64,000 nucleotides of DNA from Sedimentibacter sp. MB35-C1. Lineage in GTDB: Bacteria; Bacillota; Clostridia; Tissierellales; Sedimentibacteraceae. The translations under genes and the position numbers were made by a program. This document shows, one piece after another, positions 15,474-19,165 of this stretch (positions are counted from its first letter, which is position 1; every line of letters starts with the position of its first letter). The stretch spans positions 1,178,001 to 1,242,000 of the forward strand of contig NZ_CP133188.1 of the NCBI RefSeq assembly GCF_030913635.1, given 5' to 3'. The notes beneath the pieces are model-generated. The model did not search any database, was not told the origin of the DNA, and was given only the letters and a program-made list of their open reading frames with translations.

Positions 15474-15507
15474 AAAAGTCTGCCCAATTTTATATGGCAG
15501 ACTTTTT
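15474..15507. terminator. Bidirectional terminator
   Basis: AAAAGTCTGCC pairs with GGCAGACTTTT across an 11-nt loop; it overlaps the 3' end of the minus-strand gene at 15490 and closes both converging units. Confidence 0.8.
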
Positions 15508-15771
15508 ATCATCATCTATTAATTCAATTTCAAGCTTATCAAAATTAACCTCATCAATGAAATCTTGAGGATAGAATGTTACATACTTAAATTTGGAAAA
15601 TTCTAAGTCGTGTTTTTTAAGCCATATGGGCACACTTAAATCAAGCTTCTGACATATTTCTTTTAGGCATTTATCCTTTTTTTCTGACATAGCTACATCT
15701 TCTTTATTTTTAACTACAATTGAATCAACCAAACGATTTTTACTTATTATTTTAGCCCATAATTTATACAT
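15490..15771 (-). CDS. Conserved-looking hypothetical protein, third gene of the selenoprotein operon
   Basis: A 93-residue soluble protein without a domain I can name. It is Lys-rich in the N-terminal half and acidic at the C-terminus (ends IELIDDDKKSAI). It has one Cys pair spaced by four residues (C-L-K-E-I-C) around residue 37. The ATG at 15771 follows AAGGTGAG and lies 13 nt after the stop codon of the selenoprotein gene at 15785, so it is almost surely co-transcribed with both selenoprotein genes. A role linked to them is inferred from position only. Confidence 0.65.
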   Translation of the reverse strand: MYKLWAKIISKNRLVDSIVVKNKEDVAMSEKKDKCLKEICQKLDLSVPIWLKKHDLEFSKFKYVTFYPQDFIDEVNFDKLEIELIDDDKKSAI

Positions 15772-15784
15772 GTCTCACCTTGTT

Positions 15785-16054
15785 TTAATACTGCGGTGTT
15801 ATAATAAAATTCTTGAACAAGAATCCACCGTAATTAATTTTTGCGCCTTTAATTTTTCTCCCTAAATCATTAGGAACTATAATGTCTATTCCGTCCACAT
15901 TGTACACATTATCACTTTTCGATTGTTTCGCCGAAACAATTTTATATGTGATACCGCTTCATCCTACAGGATAACTTACAAGTTTTATAGGAAAATTTTT
16001 TTCTTGCATTAAAGATAGCTTTTCTTTTGCCTTATCTGTAATACTAATATTCAT
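15785..16054 (-). CDS. HesB-like selenoprotein (in-frame TGA read as Sec), second gene
   Basis: An 89-residue product when the TGA at 15959-15961 is read as selenocysteine, residue 32 (context YPVG-U-SGITYK). The frame continues for 57 sense codons after it, ending FKNFIITPQY. The N-terminus MNISITDKAKEKL and the strand pattern resemble the HesB/IscA fold. The Sec sits where IscA proteins have their first ligand cysteine, and the C-terminal Cys-Gly-Cys is absent. A hairpin starts 18 nt after the TGA (15922-15940). The ATG at 16054 has AAGGAG overlapping the stop of the preceding paralogue. A redox or metal/selenium-handling role is plausible but unproven. Confidence 0.88.
15922..15940 (-). 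promoter_or_regulatory. Putative bacterial SECIS hairpin of gene 15785-16054
   Basis: ATTGTTTC-GGC-GAAACAAT on the minus strand: 8 bp with a loop starting GG, beginning 18 nt after the TGA. The same stem at the same distance occurs in the paralogue. Bacterial SECIS elements lie inside the coding region just after UGA and are read by SelB. Confidence 0.7.
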
Positions 16055-16063
16055 GGCCGCTCC

Positions 16064-16339
16064 TTAGCTAAATTTTGGAATGACTTCAAATCCTTTTTTA
16101 AATATCCCACTTGCGTAACTAATTTCTGCGCCTTTTATTGCACCATCAAGTTCATCTGATACAATTAAATCTATTCCGTCAACATTATAAATTTGGTCTT
16201 TATCTGATTGTTTCTCCGAAACAATGCCTATCTCGGCACCACATCAGGAATAGCCTGTAATTTTTAATTTGATTGGTTGTTTATTATTTTTCAGCTCAGT
16301 CATTTTTTCTCTGGCTTTATCTGTTAATTTAAAATTCAT
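16064..16339 (-). CDS. HesB-like selenoprotein (in-frame TGA read as Sec), first gene
   Basis: A 91-residue product when the TGA at 16244-16246 is read as Sec, residue 32 (context ITGYS-U-CGAEIG). The protein is a clear paralogue of the next gene: both start M-N-x-x-x-T-D-K-A and share IVSxKQS, YNVDGID and IKGA. Sec is followed by Cys-Gly, giving a U-C pair. The canonical C-terminal Cys-Gly-Cys of IscA is missing. Start ATG at 16339 follows GGAGG. It is first of three genes on the minus strand. Reading the TGA as a stop would leave a 31-residue fragment and an unexplained conserved downstream frame. Confidence 0.88.
16207..16225 (-). promoter_or_regulatory. Putative bacterial SECIS hairpin of gene 16064-16339
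   Basis: ATTGTTTC-GGA-GAAACAAT on the minus strand: 8 bp with a GGA loop, beginning 18 nt after the TGA. Identical stem and spacing to the hairpin at 15922-15940. Confidence 0.7.
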
Positions 16340-16459
16340 AATTTCCTCCACATCCATGTTTTATTTACTTAACTTTATAATTTATCTGATAACAGTTCAG
16401 TGACTATGTCACATTCATTAGTTTAACTCATAACAATTTTTTTATGTTTGTATATAATA

Positions 16460-17143
16460 TTATAATCTTGCTAAATTTTCAAGTAAATAAAAAATATTTT
16501 TATGATTTGATTTTTCATCAAGAATTATTTTTTTAATAATTTTAACGGGTCTGTCACTAAGAACATAAATATAATCAGATAAATCAACTGTTTCATTAAT
16601 ATCATGGGTTATAAACAGAACTGTTCGTTTGTTTTCGTTCCATAAATTTTTAAAAATGTGAATAATATCATTTTTTATTTTTAAATCAAGTCCTTTAAAA
16701 GGTTCATCCAAAATTAAAAAATCAGATGGGTATGCAAAAGCTCTGGCTAGCGATACCCTCTGGCACATTCCACCACTTAATTCACTGGGCTTTTGTTTTT
16801 CATATCCCTTTAGGCCTACTATGTCAATGTAGCTATGTATAATATCTTTCCTTTTTTCATCAGGATAAATATCTTTGAGAACAAAGTCTATGTTGTCGTA
16901 TACACTGTACCAGGGAAGAAGCCTGTGGTCTTGAAAAACGTAGGAATATACTGTGTTTTTAATTCCAGTTACCATACCGCCGTCAATATCCGTAAGGCAT
17001 GCAGCAATGTTTGCTATTGTTGTTTTGCCTACACCTGATGGGCCAAAAAGGCAAGTTATTTTATTTTCTTCGAAGGATAAGCTGAAATCCTTAAGAATTT
17101 CAACATCTCCATATTTTTTATAAACATTTTTAAGACTGATCAT
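16460..17143 (-). CDS. TauB/SsuB-like ABC importer ATP-binding protein
   Basis: A 227-residue nucleotide-binding subunit. Walker A GPSGVGKTT near residue 34, signature LSGGMCQRVSLARA near 122, Walker B FLILDEPFKGLD near 143 and LFITHD near 178. The ACLTD and short helical domain match the nitrate/sulfonate/taurine import class. It overlaps the upstream permease gene by 14 nt. Last gene of the unit regulator, binding protein, permease, ATPase. Substrate unknown. Confidence 0.9.
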   Translation of the reverse strand: MISLKNVYKKYGDVEILKDFSLSFEENKITCLFGPSGVGKTTIANIAACLTDIDGGMVTGIKNTVYSYVFQDHRLLPWYSVYDNIDFVLKDIYPDEKRKDIIHSYIDIVGLKGYEKQKPSELSGGMCQRVSLARAFAYPSDFLILDEPFKGLDLKIKNDIIHIFKNLWNENKRTVLFITHDINETVDLSDYIYVLSDRPVKIIKKIILDEKSNHKNIFYLLENLARL

Positions 17144-17885
17144 AATTCCTCAATTTAAATAATTTTTTTAGTATTGCTTCAAAAGTAATGCTCAATATTA
17201 TTATAATAATTGTCCATGCAAATAAATCAGGCATTTCAAGATAAACCTTGGAGTCGTAAAGGAAGCTTCCGATAGAGTACTTCGGAAGGCTGAGCACTTC
17301 AGCTGCCGATGTTACTTTCCAGCCTATTCCCAGAGCCGAAATCATAGCTGCCCTAATATATGGAAGAGCAGAAAAAAGATAAACTGAAAAAATAACACGA
17401 GATTTCCTGACTTTATATAATCTGCACATATCCAGGAGGTTTGAGTCAGCTGATTTTATTCCGGCCACCGTGTTCGTCCATATAATCGGGAAACACATTA
17501 AGAATGCCACAAATATAGGGACATTGGTATCACTGAACCACATGATTGCTATTATTATTATCGACATGACTGGAATTGTACGTATTGTTGATATAAAGGG
17601 ATTAAATAAATCATGTATTAAATTGTTTGTTCCGCATAAATAACCAAGCAGTATACCTGCTGTACAAGAAAGAGCAAATCCTGCAAGAGTACGGTACGTA
17701 CTATAAAATATTGTTATGTAGGTGTTTTTACATTTCAAAAGATTTAGTAAGGCATTAAAAGCTGAATAAGGAGAAGGCAGGTAAATTTCCTGCCCTATAA
17801 CCAAGGATAATATCTCCCACATAGAAACCCAAAATAATACTATAAATATTTTTTGCTTACTACTGTTCAAAATAAAATGCTTCAT
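17130..17885 (-). CDS. TauC/SsuC-like ABC importer permease
   Basis: A 251-residue membrane protein with about six helices and the BPD_transp_1 EAA-like loop (…ALGIGWKVTSAAEVLSLPKYSIGSF…). This segment is typical of SsuC/TauC/ThiX permeases. Its start lies 26 nt inside the 3' end of the binding-protein gene and its end overlaps the ATPase gene, so all three are translationally coupled. Confidence 0.9.
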   Translation of the reverse strand: MKHFILNSSKQKIFIVLFWVSMWEILSLVIGQEIYLPSPYSAFNALLNLLKCKNTYITIFYSTYRTLAGFALSCTAGILLGYLCGTNNLIHDLFNPFISTIRTIPVMSIIIIAIMWFSDTNVPIFVAFLMCFPIIWTNTVAGIKSADSNLLDMCRLYKVRKSRVIFSVYLFSALPYIRAAMISALGIGWKVTSAAEVLSLPKYSIGSFLYDSKVYLEMPDLFAWTIIIIILSITFEAILKKLFKLRNYDQS

Positions 17886-18894
17886 CAGGTAAAGTTCCTC
17901 CTACGGAAGCAGGATTAGAATCAAACAAAATTTTGTAGAAACCATCCAGACTTGATTTTATATCTTTTGCCGGGATAAAGGTTATTCCGCAATTGGGGAT
18001 TGCTTTTTCAACCAGAGCTGCGCTTGGCATTATTTCATTTTTTTCAACTAGCACAGAGGCATCCTTTGGATTTTCATTAACCCAGTTGACAGATTCTTTG
18101 TATTGGCTTAAAAATTCTTCAACAAAATCCATATTGCTTTCTGCAAATTCTTTATTAACTACAATGCAGCCAGTGTACAATTCACTGGAATTTGAAGATG
18201 CCTTCTTCCATTCTTCGTTTAAATCAAGCAGGATTTTAACATTGTTATTCTTCATTGAAACCTGAGTTACAAACGGTTGCGGAAGAAGCGCGACTTTTGT
18301 GTCTTCAGCTATGACAGATTGTGCCAGAGTTGCATGATCTGTTGAATAATCTAGCTCAACTTTTCCATTAAGTTCATTTTGCTTAAGAATATAGTTCATG
18401 GCAAAATCAGGAGTAGAACCTTTGGCACTCATGCCAAGAGTTTTTCCTGAAAGTTCCTCAATTGAAGAAATCTCTTCTGAGCCTACAATGTATAAATTTC
18501 CCACTGTGTTTACTGCCATAATTTGCACCTTGCCTCCCGTTTTATTATATAGGACAGATGCGAGATTTATAGGAAGAGACGAGATTTGTATGTCACCTTT
18601 TATGATTTTTGCTGAAAGTGCGTCCGGTGCGCTTTCGGCTATATATTCTACATTATATTTTTCGCTGTTTAAAGCTTTCTCATCAATCAGTTTTATCATT
18701 CCTATTGATGTGGGCCCCTTCAGACCTGCTATCATTATATTTACAGGTTCGGAATTTTGCTGGCTGTCCGGTTGGTTTTCTTCAGCTCCTTGAGATTCAG
18801 CAGGTTCGGAAGTCTGAGGCTGTGTATTATTTGTACATCCTGCCATTACGGCAATAATTAAGACAATTGATAACAATAAACTTACCTTTTTCAT
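17860..18894 (-). CDS. NMT1/TauA-like substrate-binding lipoprotein
   Basis: A 344-residue exported binding protein. The ATG at 18894 (MKKVSLLLSIV) is preceded by GGAGG; an in-frame TTG before it lies in that site. The signal peptide ends in a lipobox AVMAGC at about residue 20, followed by a Ser/Gln/Pro/Glu linker. The mature part begins VNIMIAGLKGPTSIGMIKLI and has the two-lobe NMT1 layout with IEELSGKTLGMSAKGSTPDF near residue 155. Compared with ThiY or SsuA I see no diagnostic ligand motif. It follows the TM1266-like gene by 25 nt. Confidence 0.88.
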   Translation of the reverse strand: MKKVSLLLSIVLIIAVMAGCTNNTQPQTSEPAESQGAEENQPDSQQNSEPVNIMIAGLKGPTSIGMIKLIDEKALNSEKYNVEYIAESAPDALSAKIIKGDIQISSLPINLASVLYNKTGGKVQIMAVNTVGNLYIVGSEEISSIEELSGKTLGMSAKGSTPDFAMNYILKQNELNGKVELDYSTDHATLAQSVIAEDTKVALLPQPFVTQVSMKNNNVKILLDLNEEWKKASSNSSELYTGCIVVNKEFAESNMDFVEEFLSQYKESVNWVNENPKDASVLVEKNEIMPSAALVEKAIPNCGITFIPAKDIKSSLDGFYKILFDSNPASVGGTLPDEAFYFEQ

Positions 18895-18919
18895 ATTTTC
18901 CTCCAAATAAATTTTAATA

Positions 18920-19165
18920 TTATTTTTTTGACAATGCGCTTTTTACGCTTATGTTCTTAATCTTTCCCAGTCTTCCTGTTAAAGCACCAATTTCGTCGGT
19001 GGTGCCGTCCACAATCAGTGATATTACATTTACACCTTTTTCTTTATACGGGATGCCCATCCTTCCTACAATAATGAAAGCAAATTGATGTAAGATTTCA
19101 TTTACCTCAAAGATATGCGTTAAATCCTCGATCACAATTCCTACTACACCTATTCTTTTATCCAT
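18920..19165 (-). CDS. TM1266-type putative [FeFe]-hydrogenase system regulator
   Basis: An 81-residue ACT/NikR-C-like protein. RIGVVGIVIEDLTHIFEVN, IIVGRMGIPYKEKGVNVISLIVDG and TDEIGALTGRLGKI match the 'iron-only hydrogenase system regulator' family (TM1266), normally found beside hydE/F/G maturation genes. No DNA-binding domain is present. The ATG at 19165 follows AAGGAGG. Here it heads an operon with an ABC importer and lies behind an attenuator-like leader, so it may sense something connected with the imported compound. The biochemical role of the family is not established. Confidence 0.85.
   Translation of the reverse strand: MDKRIGVVGIVIEDLTHIFEVNEILHQFAFIIVGRMGIPYKEKGVNVISLIVDGTTDEIGALTGRLGKIKNISVKSALSKK

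Follow-up and report, generated by a model that had tools for sequence, protein, structure and literature searches.

HesB-like selenoproteins (TIGR01911, HesB_rel_seleno; NF038090, IscA_HesB_Se) are an already known family of proteins of anaerobes. They have the IscA/HesB fold and carry a single selenocysteine (Sec) where IscA has its first cysteine, with a SECIS element directly downstream. The Sec of these proteins lies in a U-x-G-P motif (PMC13188914), and the HesB-like selenoprotein of Methanococcus maripaludis has been shown by 75Se labelling (PMC11097638). Another described system, the SAO (Sec-assisted organometallic) operon, brings ABC transport together with CU-motif selenoproteins (PMC13188914). 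The Hes1/Hes2 pair of Sedimentibacter is an undescribed, genus-specific, divergent and duplicated branch of the known HesB-like selenoprotein family; what is new is this branch with its own genomic context. In the literature searched, the one paper in which Sedimentibacter and selenoproteins both come up has no relation to the pair.

The window, a 64,000-nucleotide stretch of the complete, single-contig Sedimentibacter genome of 3.62 Mb, contains two adjacent minus-strand genes separated by 9 nt. Hes1 (16064..16339) is a predicted selenoprotein of 91 residues with the motif S-U-C-G at residues 31-34, and its paralogue Hes2 (15785..16054), also a predicted selenoprotein, has 89 residues and the motif G-U-S-G at 31-34. 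Both reading frames are open only when the TGA at codon 32, predicted to be read as Sec (16244..16246 in Hes1 and 15959..15961 in Hes2, minus strand), is read through. Starting 18 nt past each TGA there is the same SECIS-like hairpin on the minus strand, ATTGTTTC-GG(A/C)-GAAACAAT, which takes the form ATTGTTTC-GGA-GAAACAAT in Hes1 (16207..16225) and ATTGTTTC-GGC-GAAACAAT in Hes2 (15922..15940). The original prediction was exact on the gene pair, the position of the TGA and the hairpin; the translations also agree with it on the U-C-G and U-S-G contexts and on the lack of the C-terminal Cys-Gly-Cys of IscA in both proteins. Its view of a single Sec-based centre in each protein is too simple for Hes1, as every copy except two shows a vicinal Sec-Cys (UC); Hes2 copies mostly have Sec-Ser, Sec-Ala or Sec-Asn.

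Around 20 Sedimentibacter species carry one or both Hes genes. The TGA is found at the same codon in 14 full-length Hes2 copies and in 18 intact Hes1 copies, of which a single one belongs to another genus (G025). The median pN/pS was 0.42 before and 0.29 after the TGA in Hes1, and 0.32 before and 0.33 after it in Hes2, i.e., the constraint at the protein level past the TGA is equal to or stronger than that before it. Judged from these ratios, both genes are under purifying selection on both sides of the TGA. Moreover, the Sec/Cys position was the sole invariant column in an alignment of 33 homologues. As had been anticipated, codon 32 of the relatives encodes Sec or Cys, and random stops are not the pattern. 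Conserved coding on both sides of the UGA, combined with Cys/Sec exchange in homologues, is what characterizes a selenoprotein gene. If the TGA were instead an ordinary stop, the Hes genes would be decaying or programmed-truncated, as might be read from the lone TAA at codon 32 in a degraded copy (G010) and from the Hes2 of G013, which has TTA (Leu) at this codon and a damaged hairpin. Some species do without Hes2, and the Sec-containing Hes1 is kept in G013. However, the TGA and the frame are kept in more than 30 intact copies with purifying selection past the TGA, the hairpin is conserved, and Cys occurs only where sel genes are missing. Conservation rules out the reading as a stop or a pseudogene, to which we give a negligible probability.

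The sequence of the hairpin is constrained beyond its coding need. Over codons +6 to +12 past the TGA, the synonymous codon entropy was 0.08 in Hes1 as compared with 0.55 elsewhere in the gene (permutation p 1e-4), and 0.21 as compared with 0.74 in Hes2 (p < 5e-5). The Ser codon of the hairpin is TCG in 18/18 Hes1 and 14/14 Hes2 copies, while another invariant Ser is encoded by four codons, and GTT, ATT, GAG and AAA are invariant over the hairpin in Hes1. All seven inner stem pairs are standard in each of the 33 distinct sequences, with a double compensatory change at two pairs. This synonymous constraint rules out that the hairpin merely follows from the coding of IVSxKQS. The identity of the Hes1 and Hes2 hairpins reflects this constraint but also common descent: since the tree indicates one duplication, the hairpin in common was inherited and then constrained. 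Folding of single sequences gave little signal in Hes2 (z -0.17) and a moderate one in Hes1 (z -2.3), and is insufficient alone; the case for a SECIS element is carried by the comparative evidence. An Rfam scan gave nothing usable. When the 3.62 Mb genome was searched for the TGA plus hairpin pattern with at most two mismatches, no further independent site was found, the third match being the Hes2 hairpin read on its other strand. A hairpin directly downstream of the UGA that is conserved beyond coding need, and that decays where the UGA is lost, is again a feature of a selenoprotein gene. In HesB-like selenoproteins that are more distantly related within the order, this place is taken by another stem, which likewise shows compensatory changes. 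In addition, a small helix, GCC-N6-GGC, precedes the main Hes1 hairpin (window positions 16226-16237); the GCC arm is invariant in 18/18 copies, where it faces either GGC or GGT.

All four genes of the Sec machinery, which the original prediction had named as a point to check, were found in the host genome: selA (624 bits), selB (395 bits, over the cut-off), selC, the tRNA-Sec gene, and selD (L009:5287-6351). The latter is itself a selenoprotein gene with an in-frame TGA, which makes residue 20 of the stretch translated a Sec (ASGUAAKIGP). Among the 25 Sedimentibacter genomes searched, selA and selB were both missing in G017 and G021 only; G022, a draft genome that is 81% complete, has selA at a contig end but gave no match to selB. 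Cys (TGC) at codon 32 of Hes2 is found exclusively in G017 and G021, where the hairpin no longer pairs, and the association of TGC with the absence of selA and selB was significant among the 18 Hes2-bearing genomes (Fisher p 0.0065). The G021 copy is truncated, and the two Sec-to-Cys copies may represent one shared event.

Hes1 and Hes2 gave weak matches to Fe-S_biosyn and HesB/IscA models, all below the curated cut-offs. Hes1 scored 22.6 bits with TIGR01911 (cut-off 66.35) and 38.6 bits with NF038090 (cut-off 85); Hes2 scored 28.5 bits with NF038090 and gave no match to TIGR01911. Two further Hes members that were tested also stayed below the curated cut-offs, while one order-level relative reaches that of TIGR01911 and other relatives come closer than Hes. 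As Hes1 and Hes2 fall below every curated HesB/IscA cut-off, genome annotation has probably overlooked such genes or taken their TGA for a stop. The AlphaFold model of Hes1 (pLDDT 94) has the IscA/SufA fold, with Z scores of 10.7 to SufA and 10.4 to IscA, and in an alignment with A. aeolicus AQ_1857 the counterpart of the Sec/Cys position is the Cys in GGCSG, a motif of that protein. In the tree, Hes1 and Hes2 are sister clades derived from one duplication. Common ancestry and a common fold with the HesB-like selenoproteins are thus indicated by profile matches, tree and structure. Taken jointly, we hold with high confidence that Hes1 and Hes2 are selenoproteins with UGA-32 decoded as Sec, that they have the IscA/SufA fold and that they arose by one duplication.

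The pair nevertheless differs from the described members of the family. In place of U-x-G-P, Hes1 has U-C-G-A and Hes2 has U-S-G-I, so neither protein shows the motif, and the two are duplicated, lack the C-terminal Cys, and have other neighbours and another promoter motif. The A-type Fe-S carriers IscA, SufA and ErpA share with Hes the fold (Z 10-11) and the position of residue 32. In contrast to these carriers, Hes proteins lack the C-terminal Cys-Gly-Cys and have Sec in place of Cys, and of the three ligand cysteines of IscA/SufA position 32 alone is left, as Sec. Tandem copies as such are not unique to the genus: G088, from another family of the order, has three HesB-like genes in a row (G088:C41:14076-15029, L098) with one in-frame TGA each, and pairs are found in a few other genomes. 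The host genome also encodes a third, distant IscA-like protein (G000:C1:73771-74028, L011), in which the ligand position (GYRTNG) holds no Cys and no Sec. Another HesB-like protein (L108, G146:C1) has Cys-Cys as its ligand-site residues, and its penultimate codon is TGA (YKUK), which may encode a C-terminal Sec.

Upstream of Hes1, a -10-like TATAAA (16374-16379) and a palindrome, TGTGACATAGTCACTGA (16397..16413, minus strand), of the form TGTGAC-N3-GTCACTGA, mark a predicted Hes promoter with a putative Crp/Fnr-family operator. The palindrome, with at most two mismatches, is present before 19/22 leading Hes genes at a distance of 61-81 nt, also at Hes loci away from the importer described below and where Hes2 leads. 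In the host genome there is one zero-mismatch site, and one-mismatch matches are near chance level. A promoter palindrome specific to Hes speaks against its being simply co-transcribed with the importer genes. A gene of the Crp/Fnr family lies divergent to Hes1 in G014 and G024, with the palindrome in between, and in G009 the same palindrome precedes an unlinked orthologue of this gene. The orthologue was found in 11 of the 17 genus genomes searched, all 11 with the palindrome and Hes; all four genomes without a palindrome-bearing Hes are without it, as are two genomes that have the palindrome (Fisher p 0.006). In the host genome the Crp/Fnr protein is encoded at 1662707-1663381 of contig 1. 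The palindrome is probably bound by the Crp/Fnr regulator.

Directly upstream of Hes in most of the genus lie, in this order, genes for a TM1266-family protein, a substrate-binding protein, a permease and an ATPase. In the window all four are on the minus strand. The TM1266-family gene (18920..19165), the first of the importer operon, scored 115.5 bits against the curated TIGR03959 cut-off of 60.8. It is followed by a lipoprotein substrate-binding protein (17860..18906; SsuA/NMT1-like, with a GLKGPTSIGM stretch), an ABC importer permease (17130..17885) with SaoP as its best NCBIfam match, below cut-off, and a taurine/SaoA-like ATPase (16460..17143), below all cut-offs. The proposal of a defined operon with a third gene was therefore incomplete, as the conserved neighbourhood is this upstream set. 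The third gene (15490..15771, minus strand), encoding a 93-residue protein of unknown family, usually lies downstream of Hes2 and is apart from Hes in several genomes; this speaks against an essential role, and it is probably a non-essential part. It had no Pfam or NCBIfam match, and a fold comparison of its model (pLDDT 81) with PDB gave nothing below E 0.05.

The importer family was present in 99/391 Clostridia genomes. The order TM1266, substrate-binding protein, permease, ATPase recurs outside the genus, where TM1266 directly precedes the importer in several unrelated loci, but Hes1/Hes2 after the importer were found in Sedimentibacter only, with no Hes beside the importer at the loci examined outside the genus. 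Within our sample, G018 has the importer without Hes, and the Hes loci of G009, G011 and G025 lie away from it. We conclude that the association is real, though not obligatory. A sequence search of the substrate-binding protein against PDB gave a lone significant match, 3hn0, labelled a nitrate transport protein, and did not identify the substrate. In a few other Clostridia (L168, L195 and L196) members of the importer family have [FeFe]-hydrogenase-like genes about 5 kb away or less; the host genome has three hydrogenases, none of them adjoining the Hes/importer locus. Together with TM1266, the nearby genes hint at a link to hydrogenase or iron metabolism, a weak lead.

The same neighbourhood raises the question of an organometal role like that of SAO. 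Our comparison is based on a review (PMC13188914) and the NCBIfam models. In both systems selenoproteins stand beside a sulfonate/taurine-type ABC importer and vicinal Sec/Cys occurs, here as the UC motif of Hes1, and the permease has SaoP as its best and the ATPase SaoA as its second-best NCBIfam match. However, the cut-offs of SaoA, SaoP and SaoX are not reached at the Hes locus, where the scores are far lower (90 of 295, 141 of 360 and 26 of 300 bits). Also, the selenoproteins belong to another family, the importer subunits have no Sec, and this importer family occurs widely across Clostridia, with no adjoining Hes at the loci examined. An SAO-like role is therefore unlikely in our view.

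In several other families of the order the HesB-like genes have different surroundings. A TACCC-N5-GGGTA palindrome was found just before 7/16 of them by strict matching (background 0.155 per kb), 27-51 nt before the start (L097, L098, L099, L103, L106, L107 and L110), with near matches in L094, L100 and L109. Some follow an ArsR-type regulator (L097, L098 and L100), mostly with a glutaredoxin and then DUF1858 and a holin-like protein; others follow DsbD-like plus TlpA-like genes. Examples of such neighbourhoods are L097 6452-8385, L100 4558-6770 and L101 5039-6649. The palindrome resembles CsoR/CstR operators, a hint that the wider family may be controlled by copper or reactive sulfur. CstR members of the CsoR/CstR family sense reactive sulfur species (PMC10318464), and with the glutaredoxin, DsbD-like and TlpA-like neighbours this would fit Hes1/Hes2 acting as thiol/selenol redox or persulfide carriers and not as metal carriers. 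On the other hand, both those genes and the palindrome are missing around Hes1/Hes2, and CsoR-type sites, themselves putative operators, could equally mean copper. We regard a redox or persulfide role as possible but rather doubtful, ranking it a little above the SAO-like role and below a metal or cluster carrier.

Hes1 and Hes2 are most likely redox-regulated soft-metal or Fe-S carriers. They stem from a HesB-like selenoprotein that was duplicated once in Sedimentibacter; Sec stands where IscA has the first of its three ligand cysteines, and the C-terminal Cys-Gly-Cys has been lost. UGA-32 is almost certainly decoded by SelB and tRNA-Sec via the hairpin just downstream. In the mechanism that we propose, the pair would be transcribed from its own promoter under a Crp/Fnr-family regulator. 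The proteins may form homo- or heterodimers in which the Sec, or the Sec-Cys pair of Hes1, would bind a soft metal or an Fe-S cluster, and would probably handle something linked to the TM1266-type ABC importer just upstream. We give this carrier mechanism as a whole, with its promoter, dimers and importer link, about an even chance. A more specific version, a genus-specific, Sec-dependent two-partner system with a dedicated Crp/Fnr-type switch that processes a metal- or sulfur-containing compound from the importer, is tentative.

HesB-like selenoproteins are widespread in anaerobes, and the Hes branch offers points of entry that were missing for the family. These are the duplication of the gene, the exchange of Sec for Cys that has occurred naturally where the Sec machinery is absent, the conserved importer genes nearby, and the conserved palindrome of the promoter, for which there is a candidate regulator. 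Members occur in three type strains among the genus mates of the host, Sedimentibacter saalensis DSM 13558, S. hydroxybenzoicus DSM 7310 and S. acidaminivorans DSM 24004, which makes tests practical.
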